Positions 6,560-20,271 of a stretch of 64,000 bases of DNA are shown here, in pieces. Within the stretch, counting starts at the first letter, position 1; each line of letters opens with the position of its first letter. Source of the DNA: Pseudomonadota bacterium (GTDB lineage: Bacteria; Pseudomonadota; Gammaproteobacteria; CALCKW01). Location: contig JBCCUP010000002.1 in the NCBI GenBank assembly GCA_039196715.1, positions 1 to 64,000 on the forward strand, in the 5' to 3' direction. The translations under genes and the position numbers were made by a program. The notes under the pieces were generated by a model, which saw only the letters and a list, made by a program, of their open reading frames with translations, ran no database searches and was not told the origin of the DNA.

Positions 6560-9010
6560 ATGTCTGATATCCCCACTACCGCGCGCGTCGTCATCATCGG
6601 CGGCGGTGTCGTCGGCGTCTCCACGCTCTACCACCTCGCGCTCGCCGGCTGGACCGATTGCGTGCTGCTGGAGAAGAACGAGCTCACCGCTGGCAGCACC
6701 TGGCACGCGGCGGGCAACGTCCCGACCTTCTCGGCCTCGTGGTCGGTGATGAACATGCAGCGCTACTCGACCGAGCTCTACCGCGAGCTCGGTGAGCGGG
6801 TCAACTACCCGATGAACTACCACGTCTCGGGCTCCTTGCGCCTCGCGCACAGCAGCGAGCGCATGCAGGAGTTCGAGCGCGCGCGCGGCATGGGCCAGTA
6901 CCAGGGCATCGGCATCGAGATGTGCCAGGTGTCAGACCTGAAAGACCGCTACCCCTTTCTCGAGACCCACGACCTGGTCGGTGGCCTCTACGACCCGACC
7001 GACGGCGACATCGATCCAGCCCAGCTCACCCAGGCACTCGCCAAGGGCGCGCGCGAGCTCGGCGCCACCATCATCCGTTTCAACCCCGCGACCGGCGTGC
7101 GCCGCGAAAACGGCGAGTGGGTGGTCGAAACGGAAAAAGGCGAAATCCGCTGCGAGAAGGTGGTGAACGCGGCGGGCTACTACGCCCAGCGCGTTTCCGA
7201 GTGGTTCAAGCCCTACGGCGGGCGCACCCTGCCAATGATGGTCATGAGCCACCAGTACCTGATCTCCGAGACCATTCCCGAGATCGAAGCCTGGAGTGCC
7301 GAGCACGGTGGCAAGCTGCCGCTGTTGCGCGACGTGGACTCCTCCTACTACCTGCGCCAGGAAAAGATGGGGCTGAACCTCGGCCCCTACGAGAACAACG
7401 GCGAAGGGGCGTGGCTGAGCCCGAGCGACCCAATGCCCGAGGACTTCAGCTTCCAGCTTTACGACGACGACCTCGACCGCATCGCCTGGCACATCGAAGA
7501 CGCCATGGGCCGCGTGCCACTGCTCGGCAGCGTGGGCATCGAACGCGTGATCAACGGCCCGATCCCGTACGCACCCGACGGCCTGCCGTTGATCGGGCCG
7601 ATGCCCGGCGTGCCAAACGCCTTCGAGGCCTGCGTGTTCACCTTCGGCATCGCCCAGGGCGGCGGCGCCGGCAAGGTGATGGCGGAGTGGATCACCGAGG
7701 GCGAGACCGAGTGGGACATGTGGTCCTGCGACCCGCGCCGCTACACCGACTACACCGACCAGGACTACTGCAACCAGAAAGGGCTCGAGGTCTACCGTAA
7801 CGAGTACGCGATGCACTTCCCGCATCACGAGTGGCCGGCCGGTCGCGACCGCAAGCTCTCCCCCGCGCACGACGCGATCAAACTCGCCGGCGCGCAGTTC
7901 GGTGCCTACAACGGCTGGGAACGCGCCAACTGGTTTGCCAAGCCCGGTGATGACACGTCTCACGAGGCGACGCAGACCTGGAACCGCGAAGGCCCGTGGG
8001 CGACCCGCATCCGCGAGGAATGCCACGCCGTGCGCGACAGCGTCGGCGTGCTCGACCTGCCAGGCTTCTCGCGCTTCAGCGTGAGCGGCGTGGGCGCCGC
8101 CGACTGGCTGCTCGGCCTGATCGCCGGCAACCTGCCAAAGGTCGGACGCATGAACCTCGCGTACTTCCCGACCGCCCAGGGCCGCATCCTGACCGAGATG
8201 TCGGTCATGCGCCACGGCGACGACGACTTCACGCTGATCACCGCGGCGACCGCCCAGTGGCACGACTTCGAGATCCTGCGTGACGCGCTGCCGGCTGACG
8301 GCAGCATCAGCCTGAGCGACCACACGACCGAGTTCTCCACGCTGATCGTGTGCGGGCCGAAATCGCGCGAGCTGTTTGCCGGCCTGAGCGACGACGCCGA
8401 CCTCAGCCTCGGCTGGTTGAACCACCAACAAGCGACGGTCGCCGGGCAACCCGCCACCCTCGCCCGCGTGAGCTTCGCCGGTGAACTCGGCTGGGAGATC
8501 CACGCCCGCAACGCGCACATCCCCGCGCTCTACGCCGCCGTGACCGGGGCCGGCGCCACACCCTTCGGCATGTACGCGCTCGATTCGATGCGCCTCGAGA
8601 AGGGTTACCGCACCTGGAAGGGCGACCTCTCGACCGACTACAGCCTGGTGGAAGCCGACCTCGGCCGCTTCATCAAGCTCGACAAGCCGCAGGACTTCCC
8701 GGGCAAAGTCGCCATCCAGACGGAAATACAAGCCGGTTCGAAAAAGCGCTTTGTGCACCTCGAGGTGGACGCAGGCGACTGCGACGCGCCCTACATGTCG
8801 ACCCTGTGGCAAGGCGACGAGATCGTCGGTGAAACCACCTCGGGCGGCTGGGGCTACCGCAGCGAGAAGTCGCTCGCGCTCGGCATGCTGAAGTCAGACC
8901 TCGCCGAGCCCGGCACCGTGGTGGACGTCGACATCTACGGCGAACGCCGCAAAGCCACGGTGATGGCCGGACCCGCCTGGGACCCGGCAAACGAGCGCCT
9001 GCGCGCCTGA
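6560..9010 (+). CDS. dimethylglycine/sarcosine dehydrogenase-like FAD protein with GcvT C-terminal half
   Basis: Fusion protein of 816 residues. The N-terminal DAO domain binds FAD (IIGGGVVGVS at 12-21). GSTWHAAG holds His49, the position that carries covalent FAD in dimethylglycine dehydrogenase. The C-terminal half (about 430 on) is a GcvT-like folate-binding module with GELGWEIH and the RLEKGYRTWKGD segment. Family members oxidatively demethylate N-methyl amino acids and pass the C1 unit to tetrahydrofolate. It lies two bases after the MttB-like gene, suggesting sequential removal of methyl groups from one substrate. A strong terminator follows. The exact substrate (dimethylglycine, sarcosine or another N-methyl compound) is open. 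Confidence 0.88.
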   Translation: MSDIPTTARVVIIGGGVVGVSTLYHLALAGWTDCVLLEKNELTAGSTWHAAGNVPTFSASWSVMNMQRYSTELYRELGERVNYPMNYHVSGSLRLAHSSERMQEFERARGMGQYQGIGIEMCQVSDLKDRYPFLETHDLVGGLYDPTDGDIDPAQLTQALAKGARELGATIIRFNPATGVRRENGEWVVETEKGEIRCEKVVNAAGYYAQRVSEWFKPYGGRTLPMMVMSHQYLISETIPEIEAWSAEHGGKLPLLRDVDSSYYLRQEKMGLNLGPYENNGEGAWLSPSDPMPEDFSFQLYDDDLDRIAWHIEDAMGRVPLLGSVGIERVINGPIPYAPDGLPLIGPMPGVPNAFEACVFTFGIAQGGGAGKVMAEWITEGETEWDMWSCDPRRYTDYTDQDYCNQKGLEVYRNEYAMHFPHHEWPAGRDRKLSPAHDAIKLAGAQFGAYNGWERANWFAKPGDDTSHEATQTWNREGPWATRIREECHAVRDSVGVLDLPGFSRFSVSGVGAADWLLGLIAGNLPKVGRMNLAYFPTAQGRILTEMSVMRHGDDDFTLITAATAQWHDFEILRDALPADGSISLSDHTTEFSTLIVCGPKSRELFAGLSDDADLSLGWLNHQQATVAGQPATLARVSFAGELGWEIHARNAHIPALYAAVTGAGATPFGMYALDSMRLEKGYRTWKGDLSTDYSLVEADLGRFIKLDKPQDFPGKVAIQTEIQAGSKKRFVHLEVDAGDCDAPYMSTLWQGDEIVGETTSGGWGYRSEKSLALGMLKSDLAEPGTVVDVDIYGERRKATVMAGPAWDPANERLRA

Positions 9011-9034
9011 CGCGATACCCCACTCGACCTGTCC

Positions 9035-9064
9035 GCCCCGCCGATCCCGGCGGGGCTTTTTTTT
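9035..9064 (+). terminator. rho-independent terminator after the DMGDH-like gene
   Basis: GCCCCGCC and GGCGGGGC pair around a six-base loop and are followed by eight T. It ends the MttB/DMGDH transcript, so the MAPEG gene downstream probably needs its own promoter. Confidence 0.9.
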
Positions 9065-9125
9065 GGCTGACCGACCGGTGCGCGGCCACGCTATAGTGGC
9101 GTGACACCCGCACCCGCCTGCCAAC

Positions 9126-9506
9126 ATGGTCACGCCGCTCTACGCCGCCCTGCTGACGGGTCTGTTCCTCGTGTTGAGTTTCCGGGCGCTGCTGTTGCGC
9201 CGCAAGCACGGCGTCGGCGTCGGCACCGGCGGCAACCCGACGCTGGAGAAGGCCCTCGCAGCCCACAGCAACTGCGCCGAGTACCTGCCGCTGGCGCTGT
9301 TGCTGCTGTACATGCTCGAGGTGCAGACCGGCACGGGGCTCACCGTGCACGCGCTCGGCGTGGCGCTCGTGATCGGCCGCTGCCTGCACGCTTACGGGGT
9401 CAGTCAGGTCGATGAGGACTACCGCTTCCGGGTCGCCGGTATGGTGCTGACGCTGAGCTGCCTGATCGGCGCGGCCTGGCGCCTCGCCGCGAGCACCCTC
9501 GGCTAG
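9126..9506 (+). CDS. MAPEG-family membrane protein
   Basis: Small integral membrane protein of 126 residues with four hydrophobic helices and the MAPEG pattern: a GN-x-LE-KALAAHSNCAEYLPLALLLL stretch and a conserved GRCLHAYG segment. Characterised MAPEG proteins are membrane glutathione transferases or peroxidases; many bacterial ones are uncharacterised. The gene begins after a terminator and ends 15 bases before the GMC oxidoreductase. A role in detoxifying reactive products of the neighbouring oxidases is possible but is not shown by the sequence. Confidence 0.8.
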   Translation: MVTPLYAALLTGLFLVLSFRALLLRRKHGVGVGTGGNPTLEKALAAHSNCAEYLPLALLLLYMLEVQTGTGLTVHALGVALVIGRCLHAYGVSQVDEDYRFRVAGMVLTLSCLIGAAWRLAASTLG

Positions 9507-9521
9507 CGGCCCGCGCGCACC

Positions 9522-11129
9522 GTGGCCGCGCAGGACACCTTCGACTACATCGTGGTGGGCGGCGGCGCCGCCGGTTGCGTGCTCGCCGCGCGGCTCGCGT
9601 TGGAGAGTGAGGCCTCGGTGCTGTTGCTCGAACGCGGCAACGCCGACACCAGCCGTTGGATTCACATCCCCGCCACCTTCTTCAGGGCGCTGCAGAGCGC
9701 TGACGCCGACGTCGTGGTTTCTGAGCCCGACGCCTCGCTCGACGACAAGCCCTTCCCGGTGCCGCAGGGCCGAGTGCTCGGCGGCGGCTCGTCGGTCAAC
9801 GGCATGATCTACATGCGCGGGCAGGCCCGCGACTACGACGACTGGGCGGCGCAGCACGGCTGCGCTGGCTGGGCCTACGCCGACGTCCTGCCGACCTTCA
9901 AACGTCAGGAGCGCAACACCCGGCTCGCCGACCCGTACCACGGCACCGACGGCGCACTCGTGGTCGCGGACCCGGCAACGAAACACCCCGTCTCGGCTGC
10001 GATCATCGCCGCCGCCCACGCCGCCGGCGTGCCACCCACCGAAGACTTCAACGGCGCACAGCAGGCCGGCGCCGGTTGGTACCAGGTGACCGCGCACGCC
10101 GGGCAGCGGCAGTCCGCGGCCCACTGCTTTCTCCGCCCGGCGCTGGGCCGCGACAACCTGAGCGTGCTGACCGGGCACCTCGTCGCCCGGCTGCAGTTCA
10201 CCGCGCGCCGGGCCACCGCGGTCGACTGCCTGACCCCGGAAGGCACGCCAACGCGGTTTCGGGCCCGACGCGAGATCATCCTGACCGCCGGCAGCTTCCA
10301 CAGCCCGAAGCTCCTGATGCTCTCGGGCATCGGCCCGGCCGCGGAGCTCCGTCGCCACGGCATCGACACCGTCCACACGGTGGCGGACGTCGGCCAGCAC
10401 TACCAGGACCACGTCGGCGCGCCGGTCACCCGCCGACTGAAGGACAACATCGGCTTGTACGGTGCCGAGCGTGGACTCACCGCGCTGCGCCACGGCCTCA
10501 ACTACGCGCTGTTCAAGCGCGGTCTGTTGATGAGCAACCTGCTGCAGGCCGGCGCCTGCGTCGACACCCGGGGGGACGGCCGTCCCGACGTGCAGTACAA
10601 CTTCGCGCCTTTCGCGCCGGGCAGCCCCGGCTCGCCACCGCTGCCCTTTCACGCGATCCAGGTGCACCCGATGACGATGCGGCCGGCGTCCAGAGGGCAC
10701 CTCGGCCTCGCCTCGACCGACCCGCGCGACCCGCCCCGCTTCCACGCCTCGGCGCTCGCCCACGAGGCCGACCTCGACACCCTGCGGCGCGGCGTGCGCC
10801 TGGCACGCGAGATCTGCGACCAGGCGCCGCTCCGCGAGCTGATCGACGAGGAAATCTGGCCCGGTTCGGACGTCAGCAGCGCCACCGGGTCCAACGCGCT
10901 GGACCGCGCCATCCGGTCCCAGGCGCGCACGATCTTTCACCCGGCGGGCACCTGCCGCATGGGTCCGGACGCCGGTGCCGTGGTAGATTTGCAACTCCGG
11001 GTGAACGGGGTCAGCGGCCTGCGCGTGGCCGACTGTTCGATCATGCCGGCGCTGACCTCCGGCAACACCAAGGCACCGACGATGATGATCGCAGACCGCT
11101 GCGCCGACGCCCTGCTGAACGACCACTGA
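9522..11129 (+). CDS. GMC-family FAD oxidoreductase (choline/alcohol dehydrogenase-like)
   Basis: Flavoprotein of 535 residues of the glucose-methanol-choline family. It has the N-terminal FAD motif VVGGGAAGCVLAARL, GMC signature 1 (GRVLGGGSSVNGMIYMRG), signature 2 (GSFHSPKLLMLSGIGP) and the C-terminal HPAGTCRMG with the catalytic His, followed by the family Asn in SGNTKAP. Such enzymes oxidise primary alcohols, including choline, to aldehydes. The start is a GTG at 9522. It is co-directional with MAPEG and a cupin gene spaced 10 bases downstream. It may feed the adjacent methylamine genes (choline to betaine aldehyde), but BetA, AlkJ-like and polyol dehydrogenases share these motifs, so the substrate is not decided. 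Confidence 0.88.
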   Translation: MAAQDTFDYIVVGGGAAGCVLAARLALESEASVLLLERGNADTSRWIHIPATFFRALQSADADVVVSEPDASLDDKPFPVPQGRVLGGGSSVNGMIYMRGQARDYDDWAAQHGCAGWAYADVLPTFKRQERNTRLADPYHGTDGALVVADPATKHPVSAAIIAAAHAAGVPPTEDFNGAQQAGAGWYQVTAHAGQRQSAAHCFLRPALGRDNLSVLTGHLVARLQFTARRATAVDCLTPEGTPTRFRARREIILTAGSFHSPKLLMLSGIGPAAELRRHGIDTVHTVADVGQHYQDHVGAPVTRRLKDNIGLYGAERGLTALRHGLNYALFKRGLLMSNLLQAGACVDTRGDGRPDVQYNFAPFAPGSPGSPPLPFHAIQVHPMTMRPASRGHLGLASTDPRDPPRFHASALAHEADLDTLRRGVRLAREICDQAPLRELIDEEIWPGSDVSSATGSNALDRAIRSQARTIFHPAGTCRMGPDAGAVVDLQLRVNGVSGLRVADCSIMPALTSGNTKAPTMMIADRCADALLNDH

Positions 11130-11139
11130 GACCCACACC

Positions 11140-11514
11140 ATGGACCAGCATTTCTTCAATCTGAACGACGCCGAGGGCGGCATTGAGCGCGAACTCGCGC
11201 CCGGGATCACCACGCGGGTGTACAACGGTGAGCACGCCATGGTGTCGATCGTGCGTTTCGAGCCGAACATCCGCGGCACCCTGCACCACCACCCCGAAGA
11301 ACAGTGGGGTCTGTGCGTCGAGGGCGGTGGAAAGCGCTTTCAGGGTGAGCAGGTCGTCGACGTGTCACCCGGCGATTTCTGGCGCACGCCGGGCGGCGTG
11401 CCACACACCATGGAGGCCGGCGACGCCGGCCTGGTGGTCATGGATGTGTTTGCGCCGCCGCGCACCGCGTACACGCAGCCCGGCAGCGGCTTTGCCGCCG
11501 AGACGGCCGACTGA
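11140..11514 (+). CDS. single-domain cupin protein
   Basis: Small cytosolic beta-barrel protein of 124 residues. Cupin motif 1 is visible as TLHHHPEEQWGLCVEGGGK (His and Glu metal ligands), and motif 2 as PGDFWRTPGGVPHTMEAGD (third His). It sits 10 bases after the GMC oxidoreductase gene, likely in the same transcript, and converges with the iron alcohol dehydrogenase gene. Stand-alone cupins may be isomerases, dioxygenases or binding proteins; the sequence does not say which. Confidence 0.8.
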   Translation: MDQHFFNLNDAEGGIERELAPGITTRVYNGEHAMVSIVRFEPNIRGTLHHHPEEQWGLCVEGGGKRFQGEQVVDVSPGDFWRTPGGVPHTMEAGDAGLVVMDVFAPPRTAYTQPGSGFAAETAD

Positions 11515-11529
11515 TCCCGCGACGCGCGC

Positions 11530-12675
11530 TCACAACAGGGCTTCGAAAAGGGCGCGCGTGTTCTCGGCGGTCAGTGTGACCGGGTTGCCGCCGGTGCTCG
11601 GGTCGCGCAGCGCGGCGTCAACCAGCGCGTCGAGGTCGGGGTTCTCGACGCCGAGCTCGGTCAGCGTCTTCGGAATGCCAAGGGCGGCATTGAGTTCATC
11701 GACGTAAGCGCGAAAGCCGTCGAAGCCGCCGTCGATGCCGAGGTAGGCCGCCACCCCGTCGAAGCGTTCGCGAATCGCGTCGGCGTTGAACCTGAGCACC
11801 TCTGGCATGCAGACCGCGTTGGTGGTGCCGTGGTGGGTGTTGTGCACCGCGCCGATCGGGTGGCTGAGCGCGTGGATTGCCCCGAGGCCCTTCTGAAACG
11901 CCGTCGCGCCCATCGCCGCCGCGCTCATCATGTTGGCCCGAGCCTCGAGGTCGCTGCCGTCCGCGTAAGCGCGCGGTAGATAGGTTTTCACCAGGCGCAT
12001 ACCCTCGAGCGCGATGCCCTGGCTCATCGGGTGGTAGTGCGGCGAGGAATAGGCCTCGACACAGTGGGCAAAGGCGTCGAGGCCCGTTCCGGCAGTGATG
12101 AACTGCGGCATGCCAACCGTCAGCGCCGGGTCGGCGATGACGACCGCAGGCAACATCTTCGGGTGGAAGATGATTTTCTTCTCGTGCGAGTCCGAGTTGG
12201 TGATGACACTCGCCCGCCCCACCTCGGACCCGGTGCCCGCGGTGGTCGGCACCGCCACAACCGGGGCGATCGCGTCGCTGTTGGCGCGTGTCCACCAGTC
12301 GCCAATGTCTTCGAAATCCCAGATCGGGCGCGTCTGGCCGGCCATGAACGCGATCACCTTGCCGAGGTCCAGACCGGAGCCCCCGCCAAAGGCGATCACC
12401 CCGTCGAAGCCGCCCTCGCGGTAGACGTGCACGCCTTCGACCGCGTTGCGGTCGGTGGGGTTGGCGTCGACGTTGGAAAAGCAGGCCCGACCCAGGCCGG
12501 CCTCGGCCATCAGCTCGAGCGTGCGCGCGGTGATCGGGTTGTCGGCCAGGCCCCGGTCGGTCACCAGCAGCGGCTTGCGGATGCCCGCTGCCGCGCAGGC
12601 CTCGCCAATCTCGGCAATGCGGCCGGCGCCGAATCGAATGGGGTTGGGGTAGCTCCAGTTCGCTGTCAGGGTCAT
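11530..12675 (-). CDS. iron-containing (group III) alcohol dehydrogenase
   Basis: NAD(P)-dependent alcohol dehydrogenase of 381 residues. The dinucleotide site reads IAFGGGSGLDLGK, followed by PTTAGTGSEV. Metal ligands are visible in GLDAFAHCVEAYSS (Asp and His) and in GAIHALSHPIGAVHNTHHG (two His). It starts at ATG 12675, overlapping the aldehyde dehydrogenase stop by four bases (ATGA), so the two are translationally coupled. It is the last gene of the minus-strand operon. The natural reading is alcohol to aldehyde oxidation feeding the partner dehydrogenase; the family also works in the reducing direction. Confidence 0.9.
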   Translation of the reverse strand: MTLTANWSYPNPIRFGAGRIAEIGEACAAAGIRKPLLVTDRGLADNPITARTLELMAEAGLGRACFSNVDANPTDRNAVEGVHVYREGGFDGVIAFGGGSGLDLGKVIAFMAGQTRPIWDFEDIGDWWTRANSDAIAPVVAVPTTAGTGSEVGRASVITNSDSHEKKIIFHPKMLPAVVIADPALTVGMPQFITAGTGLDAFAHCVEAYSSPHYHPMSQGIALEGMRLVKTYLPRAYADGSDLEARANMMSAAAMGATAFQKGLGAIHALSHPIGAVHNTHHGTTNAVCMPEVLRFNADAIRERFDGVAAYLGIDGGFDGFRAYVDELNAALGIPKTLTELGVENPDLDALVDAALRDPSTGGNPVTLTAENTRALFEALL

Positions 12676-14045
12676 GTCGTGCGTTTCTTCAAGTGGTAGG
12701 ACTTCGGCCGTGTCAGGGCGTGGTAACCGAGTTCGGAGAGGCCGGCGCCGCGGCCGGTGTCCTTGCAGCCGGTCCAGCAGAGCGCCGGGTCGAGGTAGTC
12801 GCAGCGGTTCATGAACACCGTGCCGGTCTGCAGTTGCCGGCCGATGGCGAGTGCCGCGTCGCTGTCGGCGGTCCACAGCGAGCAGGTCAGGCCGAAGGGG
12901 CTGTCGTTCATGAGCTCGATCGCGTGGTCGTCGTCGCGCACCGGCATGATACCGACCGCCGGTCCGAAGGTTTCCTCGCGCATGATGCGCATGCCGTGGT
13001 GCACACCGGTGAGCACCTGCGGCGTGAGGTAAGCCCCGCCGTCGTCGGCCGCAACCGTGTCGATGTGGGCCACCGCGCCCTCGGCCACCGCGTCGTCGAT
13101 GTGCTCGCGCACCAGCGCAGCAAAGCGCGCGTTCGCCATCGGCCCGAGGGTCGTCGCCTCGTCCAGCGGGTTGCCGAGTGTGTAGCCACGGACCAGCGCG
13201 ACGGCGCGCTCGACAAAGGCGTCGAACAGGCTCTCGTGCACGTAGATGCGCTCGATGCCACAGCAGCACTGCCCGGAATTGAACATGGCGCCGTCGATCA
13301 GGGTGTCGACTGCGGCGTCGAGGTCGGCGTCGGCGCGCACGTAGCCCGGGTCCTTGCCGCCGAGCTCGGTCGACACCGCGGTGAAGGTGCCGGCCGCCGC
13401 GACTTCCATCGCCCGGCCGCCGCCGACCGAGCCGGTGAAGTTCACGAGCCCGAGGTCGCCATCGGCGATCAGCGCCGCGGTGGTCTCGTGCGCCAGCACC
13501 ACGTTGCTGAACACGCCGGGCGGCAGACCGGCCGCGGCGAAGGCGTCGGCCAGGTGTTCGCCGACGAGGATCGTCTGCGCGGCGTGTTTCAGCACCACCG
13601 TGTTGCCGGCGATCAGCGCGGGCGCAACGGTGTTGATCGCGGTCATGTAGGGGTAATTCCACGGCGCGACCACGAACACGACACCGACCGGCTCGCGTTC
13701 GATCATGCGCAGGAAGGCCGAGGACTCCTCGACCATCAGCGGTGCCAGTGCGCGGTCTGCAATGGAGATCATGTACTCGGCGCGTTCGGCGAAGCCGCCG
13801 AACTCGCCGCCGTAGCGGACCGGCCGGCCCATCTGGTGCGCCAGCTCCTGCACCATGCGGTCCTGCGTCTGACCAATGAAGTCCACCGCCCGCTGCACAC
13901 AGGCGGCGCGTTCGGCCACCGGCCGCGCGGCCCAGTCGCGTTGCGCCGCACGCGCGGCCGCGACCACGTCACGCGCTGCATCAAGATCGAGCGGGGTGCG
14001 CTCGGCCACCAGGCTGCCGTCAATCGGTGAGATGCATCGGATCAT
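12672..14045 (-). CDS. aldehyde dehydrogenase (NAD(P)+) family protein
   Basis: ALDH-superfamily enzyme of 457 residues, slightly shorter than the common 480-500. It has VAPWNYPYMTAINTVAPAL, the glycine turn FTGSVGGG, the general base Glu in TELGGKDP, and the catalytic Cys in NSGQCCCGIER (three adjacent Cys). It oxidises an aldehyde to an acid. It begins three bases after the ligase gene and overlaps the alcohol dehydrogenase by four. In this context I infer that it oxidises a gamma-glutamylated amino aldehyde, like PuuC or IpuG, but no residue proves that. Confidence 0.9.
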   Translation of the reverse strand: MIRCISPIDGSLVAERTPLDLDAARDVVAAARAAQRDWAARPVAERAACVQRAVDFIGQTQDRMVQELAHQMGRPVRYGGEFGGFAERAEYMISIADRALAPLMVEESSAFLRMIEREPVGVVFVVAPWNYPYMTAINTVAPALIAGNTVVLKHAAQTILVGEHLADAFAAAGLPPGVFSNVVLAHETTAALIADGDLGLVNFTGSVGGGRAMEVAAAGTFTAVSTELGGKDPGYVRADADLDAAVDTLIDGAMFNSGQCCCGIERIYVHESLFDAFVERAVALVRGYTLGNPLDEATTLGPMANARFAALVREHIDDAVAEGAVAHIDTVAADDGGAYLTPQVLTGVHHGMRIMREETFGPAVGIMPVRDDDHAIELMNDSPFGLTCSLWTADSDAALAIGRQLQTGTVFMNRCDYLDPALCWTGCKDTGRGAGLSELGYHALTRPKSYHLKKRTT

Positions 14046-14048
14046 GGC

Positions 14049-15413
14049 TCAGGCCTTTTCGAACCCGCGCGCGATCTCCCAATCGGTCACGGCGCGGTCA
14101 AACTCGGATTGTTCCCACTCGGCGCAGCGCGTGTAGTGGTCGACGACGTCGTCGCCCAAGGCGCTGCGCAGAAACGTGGAGCCGCGCAAGCGCTCGGTGG
14201 CCTCGCGCAGCGTGGCCGGGATCTCCGGCACGCTGTCGTCTTCGTACAGGTCGCCGGCCGCCGCCGGCGGCAACGCCAGCGCGTCGTCCAGCCCACGCAG
14301 GCCCGCGGCCAGCAACGCGGCCTGCGCGAGGTAGGGGTTCATGTCGCTGCCGGGTATCCGGCACTCGACCCGCACCGCGCCGGTGTCGGCGCCACAGAGG
14401 CGGAAACCCGCTGTGCGGTTGTCGACCGACCAGGCGGTCTTGGTGGGTGCAAAGGTGCCCTTGGCGAAGCGTTTGTAGGAGTTGACGTAGGGCGCGAGGC
14501 ACACGGTGTACTCCGGCGCGTAGGTGAGCAGGCCGGCCATGAACTGCGCCATGGTCTCGGACATGCCGTGTTCGCCATCTCGGTCGGCAAAGGCATTGGC
14601 GCCGTCGCGCCAGAGCGACATGTGGATGTGGGCGGCGCTGCCGACGCGGTCGGCGTGCCACTTCGGCAGGAAGGTCGCAGCGTGGCCGTGCTGCCAGGCA
14701 ATTTCCTTGGTGGCGTGCTTGGCAATCGTGTGGTGGTCGGCACAGGCCAGCGCATCGGCATAGCGGATGTTGAGCTCTTCCTGGCCCACCTCGGCTTCGC
14801 CCTTGGAGTTTTCCACCGGCACACCCGCCGCCACCAGGTGGTTGCGCAGCGGTCGCATGACGTGCTCTTCCTTGGTGGTCTGGAGGATGTTGTAGTCCTC
14901 GTTGTAGGCGCCGAGCGGCTGCAGGTCGCGGTAGCCCTCTTCGCGCAACACGTCGAGCGGTTTGCGGAACAGGAAGAATTCGAGCTCGGTCGCCATCATC
15001 GGCGTCAGCCCGCGCTCGGCGCAGCGTGCCACCTGGGCCTTGAGGATCTGCCGCGGTGAATGCGCGACAGGGGCGTGGGTGTGGTGGTCGAGGATGTCGC
15101 AGAGCACCATCGCGGTGCCCTCGAGCCAGGGCATCAGCCGCAGGGTCGAGAGGTCCGGCTGCATGACGTAGTCGCCGTAGCCCGCCTGCCAACTGCTCGA
15201 GGCGTAGCCGTCGGGTGTGGCCATCTCGAGGTCGGTCGCGAGCAGGTAGTCGCAACAGTGGGTTTCGGCGTGCGCGCTCTCGAGGAAGTTCGAGACGTGG
15301 AAGCGCTTGCCCATGAGCCGCCCTTGCATATCGACAAGGCAGACGAGCACGGTGTCGATGGCGCCGTCGCGGGCCAGGTCGCCGAGGGTGTCAAAGCTGA
15401 TCAAACCGGACAT
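14049..15413 (-). CDS. glutamine synthetase-like gamma-glutamyl-amine ligase
   Basis: GS-fold protein of 454 residues. The beta-grasp N-terminus contains LVDMQGRLMGKRF. The catalytic domain has ATELEFFLF and GEAEVGQEELN with metal-binding Glu residues, the ATP/glutamate site GSAAHIHMSLW, and a late PGSDMNPYLAQA segment. It resembles the PuuA/GlnT class that joins glutamate to an amine rather than housekeeping GlnA; no adenylylation loop is evident. It lies in an operon with TRAP transport, aldehyde and alcohol dehydrogenases and an amidohydrolase. I infer that it activates an imported amine or amino alcohol by gamma-glutamylation. The amine's identity is unknown. Confidence 0.85.
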   Translation of the reverse strand: MSGLISFDTLGDLARDGAIDTVLVCLVDMQGRLMGKRFHVSNFLESAHAETHCCDYLLATDLEMATPDGYASSSWQAGYGDYVMQPDLSTLRLMPWLEGTAMVLCDILDHHTHAPVAHSPRQILKAQVARCAERGLTPMMATELEFFLFRKPLDVLREEGYRDLQPLGAYNEDYNILQTTKEEHVMRPLRNHLVAAGVPVENSKGEAEVGQEELNIRYADALACADHHTIAKHATKEIAWQHGHAATFLPKWHADRVGSAAHIHMSLWRDGANAFADRDGEHGMSETMAQFMAGLLTYAPEYTVCLAPYVNSYKRFAKGTFAPTKTAWSVDNRTAGFRLCGADTGAVRVECRIPGSDMNPYLAQAALLAAGLRGLDDALALPPAAAGDLYEDDSVPEIPATLREATERLRGSTFLRSALGDDVVDHYTRCAEWEQSEFDRAVTDWEIARGFEKA

Positions 15414-15441
15414 GAATTACCCATTGACTTCTGTGGCGTCA

Positions 15442-15477
15442 AAAGACGCTCGAAGCCCAGCAACGGGCTTCGAGCGT
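15442..15477 (-). terminator. intercistronic hairpin with short T-run
   Basis: ACGCTCGAAGCCC and GGGCTTCGAGCGT form 13-bp perfect arms around a six-base loop. On the minus strand this is followed by CTTTTG. It lies between the TRAP binding-protein gene and the ligase gene. With only four T it may be a partial terminator or a mRNA-stabilising stem that raises expression of the binding protein over the enzymes. Confidence 0.65.
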
Positions 15478-15493
15478 GCGCTGTGGCGCGAAC

Positions 15494-16534
15494 TCAGCTG
15501 TAGCGGTACGGCCGCCCCGCTTTCGCCATGTCCGCGTTGTATTGGCGGAAGATGTTAACAATCTTTGCCTTGGTCTCGGACTCGCTTGCGATCTCGTCCC
15601 AGAACTTGACCGCCGCCTCTTCGACCTGCGCCCACTCCGCGTCCGGGATGGACGTGAGCTTCATCTTGGTGCCGTTGACGCGCAGGTTCGCCTCGCCGCC
15701 CCAGTACCACCACTGGCGGTAGTAGTGGCTCTGCTCCATGCACACGGTGAGCAGCGCCTGGAGGTCTTCGGGCAATTCGTCCCAGCGCTCCTGGTTGGCG
15801 AAGAAGTGGCCAATCCAGGCCCCGGAGATGTTGTTGGTCAGGAAATAGTCGGTGACGTCCGCCCAGCCGACCGTGTAGTCCTCGGTGATGCCGGACCACG
15901 CAATGCCATCGAGCTCACCGGTCTGCACCGCCACTTCGATGTCTTCCCACGGCAGGGTCACGGGCACGACGCCGAACTGCGCGAGGAAGCGGCCTGCGGT
16001 CGGGAAGGTGAACACCCGCTTGCCCTTGAGGTCGGCGAGCGAGTTGATCGGGTCCTTGGTGGCGAAGTGACAGGGGTCCCAGGAGCCGGCCGAGATGTGC
16101 TTGACACCCACCTTGGCGTATTCGGCTTCCCAGATCTCCTTGAGACCGTACTGGTTGAACAGCACCGGCACGTCGAGCGAGTAGCGCGACCCGAACGGGA
16201 AGTAGCCACCGAAGACGGTGACCTCGGTCGGCGACGCCATAGAGTCGTCGTCGGACTGCACGGCGTCGATGGTGCCGCGTTGCATCGCCTGAAACAATTC
16301 GCCCGTCGGCACCAACTGGTCGGCGGTGAACAGCTCGATCTGCATGCGGTCGCCGGCGATCTTGTTGAAGGTGTCGATCGCAGGCTTGACGACGTGCTCG
16401 GCGAGCGGCCCGCCGGCGTAGGTCTGCATGCGCCACTTGATCGTGGAATTCGCGATGGCGGGCGCGGCGAAGGTGGATGCGGCGGCCGGGGCGGCAACGG
16501 CAGCGCCTTTGATGAAATTGCGTCTTGTGGTCAT
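15494..16534 (-). CDS. dctP: TRAP transporter periplasmic substrate-binding protein
   Basis: DctP-family solute receptor of 346 residues. The N-terminus TTRRNFIKG followed by an Ala-rich stretch ending AAPAIA is a twin-arginine (Tat) signal, so it is exported folded. The mature part shows the family layout, with a ligand-contact Arg region around PTAGRFLAQFG and the WSGITEDYTVGWADV segment typical of the mandelate/keto-acid-like subgroup. The ATG at 16534, preceded by CTGGAGAG, is preferred over an upstream one. Together with DctM and DctQ it forms a Na+-driven importer. The ligand cannot be deduced. A hairpin follows. Confidence 0.92.
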   Translation of the reverse strand: MTTRRNFIKGAAVAAPAAASTFAAPAIANSTIKWRMQTYAGGPLAEHVVKPAIDTFNKIAGDRMQIELFTADQLVPTGELFQAMQRGTIDAVQSDDDSMASPTEVTVFGGYFPFGSRYSLDVPVLFNQYGLKEIWEAEYAKVGVKHISAGSWDPCHFATKDPINSLADLKGKRVFTFPTAGRFLAQFGVVPVTLPWEDIEVAVQTGELDGIAWSGITEDYTVGWADVTDYFLTNNISGAWIGHFFANQERWDELPEDLQALLTVCMEQSHYYRQWWYWGGEANLRVNGTKMKLTSIPDAEWAQVEEAAVKFWDEIASESETKAKIVNIFRQYNADMAKAGRPYRYS

Positions 16535-16589
16535 GGACAACTCTCCAGGGATGACAGTCAACGTGACAAGGAAACACGCTCTCGTCGGG

Positions 16590-17915
16590 TTACTTCGCGT
16601 AAATCAGTTCCGGTAACCACAGAGCGATCGAGGGAAACACCATGATGGCGGCCAGTGCCAGGGTCATGACACACACGAACGGGATGATCGAACGGTAGAT
16701 GTCGCCGAGCCCGATCTCGGGCGGCGACATGGCACGCATCAGAAAGAGGTTGTACCCGAAGGGCGGTGTCATGTAGGCGATCTGTGTGGTGATGGTGTAG
16801 AGCACGCCATACCAGATGAGATCAAAGCCCAGTGAACCGACCAGCGGGATGTAGAGCGGTGCGACGATCACCAACATGGCGGTGTCGTCGAGAAAGGTAC
16901 CCATCAGAATGAAGCTGAGCTGCATGAGGATCAGGATCGCCCAGGGGCTCAGGCCGAGGCGTTCGGTGAACACGCTTTCGATCGCCTTGACCGCACCGAG
17001 GCCATCGAACACGGCGCCGAAGGCGAGCGCAGCGAGGATGATCCACATGAACATGCAGGTGATGCCGAGCGTGTTGCGCACGGACGTCTCGAACACGGTC
17101 CAGTTCATGCGCCGCTTGAGCACGGCCGCGACGAACGCCGTGATCGCGCCGATCGCCGAACTCTCCACCAGCGAGGTCCAGCCGTTGACGAAGGGGATCA
17201 TCATCGCGAAGAAAATCGCGAAGGGCAGCAAGCCGGCGAGCAGCAGGCGGTTCTTCTCGCGCTGCGGCATGGCGCGGTCGGCCTCGGACAACACCGGGCC
17301 GAGCGCCGGGTTGAGCCGGCAGCGCACCGCGATGTAGATGACGAACATACCGGCCATCATCAAGCCCGGCACCACGCCCGCCAACCAGAGTTGGCCGACT
17401 GGTTGCCGGGCGATCATGGCATAGAGCACCAGCACCACCGACGGTGGCACCAGGATGCCGAGCGAACTCCCCGCCTGGATCACCCCGGTGACCATGCGCT
17501 TGTCATAGCCCCGCCGCAGCAACTCCGGTAACGCAATGGTGGCCCCGATGGCCATGCCCGCAACCGACAGGCCGTTCATGGCCGAGATCAGCACCATCAA
17601 GCCGATGGTGCCGATCGCGAGGCCACCGCGCAGCCCGCCCATCCAGACGTGGAACATGCGGTAGAGGTCGTCGGCGATGCGACTCTCGGACAGGATATAG
17701 CCCATGAACACGAACATCGGCACCGTCAGCAACGGGTACCAGCGCATCAGCTTGATGCTCTGCGAGAAGGCGATGTCGAATCCGCCGCGGTCGCCCCAGA
17801 GCGCCAGGGCGGCAATCACGGCGACAAAGCCGATCGCACCGAACACGCGCTGGCCGCTGAACAGCAACAGCATCATGGTCGAGAACATCAGGAGGGCGAT
17901 GAGCTCGTAGGACAT
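16590..17915 (-). CDS. dctM: TRAP transporter large permease DctM
   Basis: Polytopic inner-membrane protein of 441 residues with about 12 hydrophobic helices and the family regions GLSVAGMAIGATIALPELLRRGYD, GILVPPSVVLVLYAMIARQPVG and the late TPPFGYNLFLMRAM segment. It forms the ion-coupled translocation channel. Its ATG shares one base with the stop of dctQ (TGATG), so the two subunits are coupled in translation. Nothing is missing. Confidence 0.93.
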   Translation of the reverse strand: MSYELIALLMFSTMMLLLFSGQRVFGAIGFVAVIAALALWGDRGGFDIAFSQSIKLMRWYPLLTVPMFVFMGYILSESRIADDLYRMFHVWMGGLRGGLAIGTIGLMVLISAMNGLSVAGMAIGATIALPELLRRGYDKRMVTGVIQAGSSLGILVPPSVVLVLYAMIARQPVGQLWLAGVVPGLMMAGMFVIYIAVRCRLNPALGPVLSEADRAMPQREKNRLLLAGLLPFAIFFAMMIPFVNGWTSLVESSAIGAITAFVAAVLKRRMNWTVFETSVRNTLGITCMFMWIILAALAFGAVFDGLGAVKAIESVFTERLGLSPWAILILMQLSFILMGTFLDDTAMLVIVAPLYIPLVGSLGFDLIWYGVLYTITTQIAYMTPPFGYNLFLMRAMSPPEIGLGDIYRSIIPFVCVMTLALAAIMVFPSIALWLPELIYAK

Positions 17916-18484
17916 CAGTCGAGCGCCTCACCGCGCAGCCGCAACACGTCCTTGCCGAGCTCGGAGAGTGCCTGCAGCAGCATCAGCACAATGCCGACGC
18001 ACATGATCGTCTTCACCGGCCAGAGGTAGGGCCGCCAGATCGTTCGGCTGCGTTCCAGCGTGCCCACCGATTTCTCCCCGGTGGCGAGGTCGACGAAGAA
18101 GCCCACCGGCTCCGAGCCGAAATAGCCGAGCGAGTAGGCCGTCGAGCTCAGCCCACCCCACAACAGCACGCCGAGGTAGACGAGCAGGCACAGCACCGTC
18201 ACGGCGTCGACCGCCGCCTTGCGGTGCGCGCTCCAGCCGTCGTAGAAGAGGTCCATGCGCACGTGCGAGCCCATCTGGATGGCGTAGGGCCCGCCGAGGA
18301 AGAAGTAGGCGATCATCGCGAACTGCGCGACCTCGAGCGTCCACAGCGAGGGTTGGTCGCCGAACTTGCTGACCGTCGACCACAGCAACACGGCCATCAT
18401 CACGAAGACGCCGTACATGATGACCCGCCCCACCCCGCGGTTGAGCCGGTCGGCGAAAGCGATGTACGACCGCAGCAGCGTCAC
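17915..18484 (-). CDS. dctQ: TRAP transporter small permease DctQ
   Basis: Inner-membrane protein of 189 residues with four hydrophobic helices and the DctQ pattern: MGSHVRMDLFYD after helix 2 and a long loop before the last helix. It scaffolds DctM. I choose the GTG at 18484, which overlaps the amidohydrolase stop as GTGA; an ATG at 18571 would overlap that gene by about 90 bases. The large loop (about 120-150) is somewhat longer than in the smallest DctQ proteins. Confidence 0.88.
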   Translation of the reverse strand: MTLLRSYIAFADRLNRGVGRVIMYGVFVMMAVLLWSTVSKFGDQPSLWTLEVAQFAMIAYFFLGGPYAIQMGSHVRMDLFYDGWSAHRKAAVDAVTVLCLLVYLGVLLWGGLSSTAYSLGYFGSEPVGFFVDLATGEKSVGTLERSRTIWRPYLWPVKTIMCVGIVLMLLQALSELGKDVLRLRGEALD

Positions 18485-19245
18485 GTCCGGCTCGCCTGCG
18501 CGGGCGCCGCCAGGGCGTCGCTGATGCTGTGCGACAACCAGATCGCCAGCAGCTTCGCCATACGTTGACACGGCTCGGCCGAGGCGATGAGGTCGTTGCG
18601 GATTTCGATCATCACGTTCAGCAGGCCGCGCGGCAGCGCGTGCCGGCGCAAGGTGTGGGTGACGCCGTCATCCGGCCCGTAGGGCTCGTTGCGGCGGCAC
18701 TCGAAACCGTCAACCCGCGCCAGCAGCGCGTCCGCGAGGCGCGTGTCGCTGTCGTGGAGGACGCCGATTTCCACCTCGCGCGGCGTGCCGAAGTAGGTGG
18801 GCGTAAAACTGTGCACGGTCGCGAGCACCGGCGGCAGCGCGCGGCGCGACAACACTTCCGCGAGCCGCTGCTCGAAGGGCTCGTAGACCGACCGCGTGCG
18901 CGCCGCCCGGGCGTCGGGCGTGAGGTCGAGGTTGCCGGGGATCACCGTGTCTTCGCTCTGCGCCGGCATCGCGCTCGCCGCCTCGGGCGGGCGGTTGCAG
19001 TCGTAGACGAGCCGCGACACGGTGCCGTACACCAGCGGCGCATCGAGCAGCGCCGACATCTCGCGGGCGGTGTCGAAGGCACCCGGGTCCCAGGCGATGT
19101 GGCTGGTGAGCGCCCCGTCGGGCAAGCCGAGGGTGCCGTAGGCCGGCGGGATGGTGTGGCTCGCGTGCTCGCACACCAGCACACACGGGTGGCGTCCGTC
19201 CGGGTTCAGAACGCGCACAGGCGGCGCGTCCAGCGGGTCATCCAT
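18481..19245 (-). CDS. N-formylglutamate amidohydrolase-family protein
   Basis: Zn-hydrolase-like protein of 254 residues of the family containing HutG (N-formylglutamate deformylase). It has VLVCEHASHTIPP near the start, HIAWDPGA, a YDCNRPP segment and TVHSFTPTYFG with conserved His. No hut genes are present. It is the first gene of the TRAP/ligase/dehydrogenase operon and overlaps dctQ by four bases (GTGA). I infer that it cleaves the amide of a glutamyl conjugate, as a hydrolase closing the pathway; true N-formylglutamate activity remains possible. Start at ATG 19245; an upstream in-frame ATG at 19365 would cover the promoter. Confidence 0.82.
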   Translation of the reverse strand: MDDPLDAPPVRVLNPDGRHPCVLVCEHASHTIPPAYGTLGLPDGALTSHIAWDPGAFDTAREMSALLDAPLVYGTVSRLVYDCNRPPEAASAMPAQSEDTVIPGNLDLTPDARAARTRSVYEPFEQRLAEVLSRRALPPVLATVHSFTPTYFGTPREVEIGVLHDSDTRLADALLARVDGFECRRNEPYGPDDGVTHTLRRHALPRGLLNVMIEIRNDLIASAEPCQRMAKLLAIWLSHSISDALAAPAQASRT

Positions 19246-19281
19246 GTGTCGCCCCTGGCACGGCTGGGATAGCGGATGTAA

Positions 19282-19311
19282 ATTTTTCTTCAGGGCGAGC
19301 CGCCCTGTCAA
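19282..19311 (-). promoter_or_regulatory. promoter of the catabolic operon with a palindrome in the spacer
   Basis: On the minus strand TTGACA (19311-19306) is an exact -35, followed after 18 bases by AAAAAT as a weak -10. The spacer contains a perfect dyad, CAGGGCG-GCT-CGCCCTG (19291-19307). A dyad between -35 and -10 is a plausible operator, most simply for the divergent RpiR regulator. Further A/T-rich repeats (GTAAATTTTTC, GAATTTTTAC) flank it. Confidence 0.5.
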
Positions 19312-19395
19312 TGATTTTTGATCAGAATTTTTACTCGGCGCAACGGATTGAACCGTTTTTGACAATGCGTTTCAGGCTGGGATAGCGTTGGCCGG

Positions 19396-20271
19396 ATGAC
19401 CGACGACCCGACCGATAACACGATTGCCGAGAAGCTCCAGCAGAACCGCGACGCGCTGACCCGCGCGGAGCGCCAGCTCAGCGACGTGATCCTGCAGAAC
19501 TACCCGGCCTCCGGGCTCGGCACCATCACCACCCTTGCGGCGGCGGCCGAGGTGTCGACCCCGACGGTCGCGCGGCTGGTCCAGAAGCTCGGCTTCGCGG
19601 GCTTCCCGGCGTTTCAGCGCAGCCTGCGTTCCGAACTCAACGAGAAGATCTCGAGCCCGCTGACAAAACGGGAGAAGTGGGTCGACGACGCCCCCGAGGA
19701 ACACCTGCTCAACCGCTTCACCAAGGCGGTGATCGACAACATCGGTCAATCGATGGCCAAGGTTGACCCCGACGACTTCGAGACCGCCTGCACCATGCTC
19801 GGCGACCCGGAGCGTCGGGTGTTCGTCGTGGGTGGCCGCATCACGCGCACACTGGCCGACTATTTCTACCTGCACTTCCAGGTGATTCGGCGCGACGTGG
19901 TGCATATCGCCTCGAATTCCAATGCCTGGCCCCACTACGTGCTCGATTTCAAACCGGGGGACGTGGTCGTGGTGTTCGACATCCGTCGTTACGAAAACAG
20001 CACGCTCAAGCTGGCGGAGTTGGCGCGCGAGTGCGGCGTCGAAATCGTGCTGTTCACCGACCAGTGGATGTCTCCGATCGCACAACACGCCACCGTGTGC
20101 TTCACGAGCCAGATCACCGCGCCCTCGGCCTGGGATTCGAACATCGCCACGATGCTGCTGTCCGAGATCGTGATCGCCGAAGTCGAGGAGCGCAACTGGG
20201 ACACCACGCGCGACCGCATGGAAGCGCTCGAGGACATGTTCGACCGCACGCGCTTCTTCCGGAAATTCTGA
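19396..20271 (+). CDS. RpiR-family transcriptional regulator
   Basis: DNA-binding regulator of 291 residues. The N-terminal RpiR helix-turn-helix covers about residues 1-80 (TITTLAAAAEVSTPTVARLVQKLGF). A C-terminal SIS domain (about 125-265, RVFVVGGRITRTLADY onward) would bind a phosphorylated sugar or another acidic metabolite. It is divergent from the TRAP/ligase operon and is the obvious candidate to control it. TTGACA at 19359-19364, with a weak ATAGCG 17 bases on, would give a start site almost at the ATG, so a leaderless transcript is possible. The ligand is unknown. Confidence 0.9.
   Translation: MTDDPTDNTIAEKLQQNRDALTRAERQLSDVILQNYPASGLGTITTLAAAAEVSTPTVARLVQKLGFAGFPAFQRSLRSELNEKISSPLTKREKWVDDAPEEHLLNRFTKAVIDNIGQSMAKVDPDDFETACTMLGDPERRVFVVGGRITRTLADYFYLHFQVIRRDVVHIASNSNAWPHYVLDFKPGDVVVVFDIRRYENSTLKLAELARECGVEIVLFTDQWMSPIAQHATVCFTSQITAPSAWDSNIATMLLSEIVIAEVEERNWDTTRDRMEALEDMFDRTRFFRKF

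Follow-up and report, generated by a model that had tools for sequence, protein, structure and literature searches.

Organization of the locus

What substrate is served by an operon that joins a TRAP transporter to a glutamine synthetase (GS)-like ligase and two dehydrogenases, and does such an operon represent a new pathway? The question is raised by a minus-strand operon at positions 11530 to 19245 of a 64-kb stretch of DNA (the window, meaning the whole stretch analysed), which a preliminary description had put forward as a possible undescribed pathway. Six-frame open reading frames (ORFs), their translations and Pfam searches showed seven genes in one unit, adjoined by a divergent rpiR gene on the plus strand (19396 to 20271; HTH_6, PF01418, and SIS, PF01380). 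In order of transcription, the operon encodes a protein of the formylglutamate amidohydrolase family (18481 to 19245; PF05013), the TRAP small permease DctQ (17915 to 18484; PF04290), the TRAP large permease DctM (16590 to 17915; PF06808), a DctP binding protein with a twin-arginine signal (15494 to 16534; PF03480), the GS-like ligase (14049 to 15413; PF00120), an aldehyde dehydrogenase with the motifs ELGGK and GQCC (12672 to 14045; PF00171), and an iron alcohol dehydrogenase (11530 to 12675; PF00465 and PF25137). Pfam agreed with the family assignment of every gene of the operon and of rpiR, and the content, order and position of all eight genes were as the preliminary description had proposed. 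The mechanical ORFs of the alcohol dehydrogenase and the amidohydrolase probably start too far upstream, and better starts lie at 12675 and 19245, respectively. The same description had placed overlaps of 1 to 4 bases at most junctions. This holds for three of the six, amidohydrolase/DctQ (4 bp), DctQ/DctM (1 bp) and aldehyde dehydrogenase/alcohol dehydrogenase (4 bp), but the other three are gapped, by 3 bp (ligase/aldehyde dehydrogenase), 55 bp (DctM/DctP) and 80 bp (DctP/ligase).

The operon corresponds to a published ethanolamine operon

Phaeobacter sp. MED193 carries an ethanolamine operon (MED193_10021-10056) that consists of RpiR, GGAH, EtoV, EtoW, EtoX, ETAGA, GAADDH and GETADH (PMC10132767). 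The window carries the same eight genes as the MED193 locus (L069 in our set), in the same order and orientation and with rpiR in the same divergent position, and differs from it by sequence divergence only. This divergence is greatest in RpiR (52% identity), in GGAH, the gamma-glutamylglycine amidohydrolase (54%), and in EtoV, the small permease (58%). Identity is higher for ETAGA, the ethanolamine gamma-glutamyl ligase (67%), GAADDH, the gamma-glutamylacetaldehyde dehydrogenase (69%), EtoW, the large permease (70%), GETADH, the gamma-glutamylethanolamide dehydrogenase (75%), and the binding protein EtoX (84%). The proteins of the MED193 operon are upregulated on phosphorylethanolamine, and MED193 EtoX has a Kd of 7.9 uM for ethanolamine and showed no binding of phosphorylethanolamine, phosphocholine or glycerol phosphates; the intermediate steps of the pathway are predictions in that work also (PMC10132767). 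In that paper, the MED193 genes are said to be closely related to the ethanolamine pathway of Chromohalobacter salexigens and A. tumefaciens of Vetting et al. 2015.

A search of other genomes for the same gene order, which the preliminary description had called for, found all eight genes in order at 59 of the 80 closest loci, and several of the loci not counted in the 59 end at contig ends. The proposal that the pathway is undescribed is thus ruled out by the literature and by the locus comparison (the MED193 operon; the enzyme families in PMC9397018). TRAP uptake and RpiR control had been predicted correctly, both being parts of the MED193 operon, but the combination of these with a hydrolase of the formylglutamate amidohydrolase family, which had been held to set the locus apart, is exactly the one published (PMC10132767). 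Judged by sequence, the operon is almost certainly the eto ethanolamine-utilization operon, a system already in print; we found nothing that contradicts this reading, and a close amino alcohol as substrate would still be compatible with the sequence.

The binding protein EtoX and the substrate

Among solved structures, the best match to the window EtoX is 4uab/4xf5 (E = 2e-193, residues 37 to 354 of the longer ORF), the next solved protein following at E = 5e-18, and 4uab matches EtoX across its full mature length. We take 4uab and 4xf5 to be Csal_0678 with bound ethanolamine. Csal_0678, from C. salexigens, binds ethanolamine and is without the carboxylate-binding arginine of nearly all TRAP binding proteins; in binding proteins in which this residue (Arg-147) is missing, it is most often replaced by Phe (PMC4646407). 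Ethanolamine has been called a surprising positively charged TRAP ligand (PMC5812351). When the alignment column is assigned by eye, the window EtoX has Phe at the position expected for the carboxylate arginine, in a GKRVFTFP segment that is identical in 4uab. Together with the identity to MED193 EtoX and the match to 4uab, the FTFP segment identifies the window protein as an orthologue of the ethanolamine-binding EtoX/Csal_0678 type, without the carboxylate arginine.

The operon most likely functions to convert ethanolamine into glycine and glutamate. EtoVWX would import ethanolamine, and the GS-like ligase would couple it to glutamate at the expense of ATP. The resulting gamma-glutamylethanolamide would be oxidized to gamma-glutamylglycine in two steps, first by the iron alcohol dehydrogenase and next by the aldehyde dehydrogenase, and the enzyme of the formylglutamate amidohydrolase family would release glycine and glutamate from that product. 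This sequence agrees with the MED193 operon, as does the preliminary prediction of gamma-glutamylation of an amino alcohol, two oxidations and a final hydrolysis that yields glutamate together with an amino acid. In the window organism, every step is proposed from orthology; ethanolamine binding and phosphorylethanolamine induction are published for orthologues. The enzyme set would suit any small primary amino alcohol, and the evidence for the window genome is that of sequence, so that a lineage might have kept the eto gene set and shifted its substrate to alaninol, aminopropanol or serinol. We give this variant of the pathway only a slim chance, because EtoX is so close both to a proven ethanolamine binder and, over the full mature length, to 4uab, and because conservation with the MED193 locus extends over the entire operon.

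Enzymes of the pathway

The assignment of the ligase to ethanolamine is consistent with its structural relatives. Its nearest solved structure is 5dm3 (E = 2e-205), whereas ordinary glutamine synthetases reach about E = 1e-53 at best. We take 5dm3 to be Csal_0679, the neighbour of Csal_0678. The ligase falls below the cut-offs of the GlnA and type III models and far under that for gamma-glutamylputrescine synthetase (216.5 versus 650 bits), and, with its 67% identity to MED193 ETAGA, it is assigned to the ethanolamine gamma-glutamylase branch. For GGAH, the nearest solved structure is 2odf (Atu2144; E = 8e-78), and the model of the HutG N-formylglutamate deformylase, TIGR02017, is matched at E = 4e-4 with 19.8 bits against a cut-off of 278.75. 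An ordinary glutamine synthetase and a HutG deformylase were ruled out on these grounds. Superfamily names alone would also fit an ammonia-assimilating glutamine synthetase lying next to an unrelated TRAP operon for carboxylates, and an amidohydrolase that serves as HutG in histidine degradation, but this is extremely improbable in view of the scores of both enzymes, the DctP protein without a carboxylate arginine, and the gene order kept as a single unit at the 59 loci mentioned above.

The E. coli Puu and Pseudomonas Ipu pathways follow the same logic of gamma-glutamylation, oxidation and hydrolysis as the eto operon, but with other substrates, transporters and hydrolases. Closer parallels are found in C. 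salexigens and S. coelicolor, whose pathways are listed with the same four enzyme families (Table 2 of PMC9397018). Those of C. salexigens are PF00120, PF00465, PF00171 and PF05013, all shared with the window, and its ethanolamine-binding TRAP protein is close to the window EtoX; this comparison covered proteins and families. In S. coelicolor, synthesis of gamma-glutamylethanolamide by GlnA4 has been demonstrated, and the GlnA4 pathway (SCO1611-SCO1615) has the same four proposed steps, including a hydrolase of the formylglutamate amidohydrolase family (PMC6529630); unlike the window operon with its RpiR protein, it is regulated by EpuRI, and the passages of that paper considered here name no TRAP transporter.

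A search of the genome (assembly 96% complete) gave no match to EutB, and the same search detected the E. coli control, so the ammonia-lyase route (the canonical eut pathway) is absent from the assembly. Seven further GS-family matches, with 29 to 35% identity to the ligase, are present in the genome (G000; contigs C122, C15, C7, C26, C11 and C39), so that further gamma-glutamyl ligases are likely in addition to the housekeeping glutamine synthetase.

A predicted RpiR operator and an intercistronic hairpin

A palindrome of roughly TGAAAA-n-AT-n-TTTTCA/TTTACA is common to the rpiR-GGAH gaps of 60 nonredundant loci, among them that of the window. A motif model trained on 29 of these gaps, with the window excluded and 30 gaps held out, reached a score of 14 bits or more in 22 of the 30 held-out gaps; none of 114 other gaps from these operons and none of 300 shuffled gaps did so. 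The top-scoring site of the whole locus lay in the rpiR-GGAH gap in 26 of the 30 held-out loci. The best match in the 64-kb window is the predicted operator TGAAGAAAAATTTACA (read on the minus strand), at 19277 to 19292, and a pattern-only search of the genome found TGAARAANAWTTTWCA exactly matched here and nowhere else. The site overlaps the -10 region of a predicted sigma-70-like operon promoter on the minus strand (19282 to 19311; TTGACA, 18 nt, AAAAAT), itself the sole promoter-like match between 11400 and 20400, where 0.8 would be expected by chance. Many sites include TATTGACA, and a promoter-like TTGACA overlaps part of the motif in many loci, so that part of the motif signal may be a -35 element; several palindromes are without TTGACA, which argues for a site separate from the -35. 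The palindrome is probably the RpiR operator, a candidate repressor site being the simplest reading: the divergent RpiR protein would most likely act as a repressor, occupying the palindrome over the -10 of the operon until an inducer arrives. No report of an operator for this RpiR regulator, and no account of the operon other than those cited, was found in the literature searched, which did not extend to Vetting 2015 itself.

The 80-bp gap between etoX and the ligase gene (15414 to 15493, minus strand) contains a strong hairpin with a 13-bp stem, the whole gap folding at -38.1 kcal/mol (z = -4.6). By simple count, unadjusted for chance, 63 of 70 related loci have a stem of 8 bp or more in this position. 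The hairpin may serve to terminate transcription in part or to protect the message, so that more binding protein than enzyme is made, as is common behind binding-protein genes.

Neighbouring genes and related loci

Between 4980 and 9010, the window carries an MTTB (trimethylamine methyltransferase family) gene without an internal stop, followed by a dimethylglycine dehydrogenase-like gene (FAD oxidoreductase and GcvT domains), which suggests methylated-amine metabolism beside the operon. GMC oxidoreductase and cupin genes (9522 to 11514) converge on the operon end. On the other side, rpiR is followed, between 20572 and 22651, by a gene of the selenium-binding protein/SBP56 family, well under the cut-off for the methanethiol oxidase MtoX, and by a gene for a putative membrane protein with no Pfam match.

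Related loci vary in their enzyme genes. In several gammaproteobacterial loci, mostly from Granulosicoccaceae (L044, at 8000 to 15300, L021, L037, L072 and L054), the ligase and the iron alcohol dehydrogenase are kept but the sequence retrieved shows no aldehyde dehydrogenase, so that this enzyme must be supplied from elsewhere or the step differs; in L044, genes for a threonine dehydratase and a ribose-5-phosphate isomerase follow directly. EtoVWX occurs without enzyme genes nearby in L049 (7039 to 11029), L019 and L060. In L049 it is accompanied by an RpiR gene, beyond which lie Lon, TGT and nucleoside hydrolase genes. Among three other genomes of the same genus (G001, only 79% complete, G002 and G003), a close EtoX (83%) was found in G002 only, and the operon is thus patchy even within the genus.

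Conclusions

The operon is in all probability a further example of an already published bacterial route for the recycling of ethanolamine, a phospholipid headgroup, that works without ethanolamine ammonia-lyase. The predicted RpiR operator would be a modest, testable addition beyond the published system.
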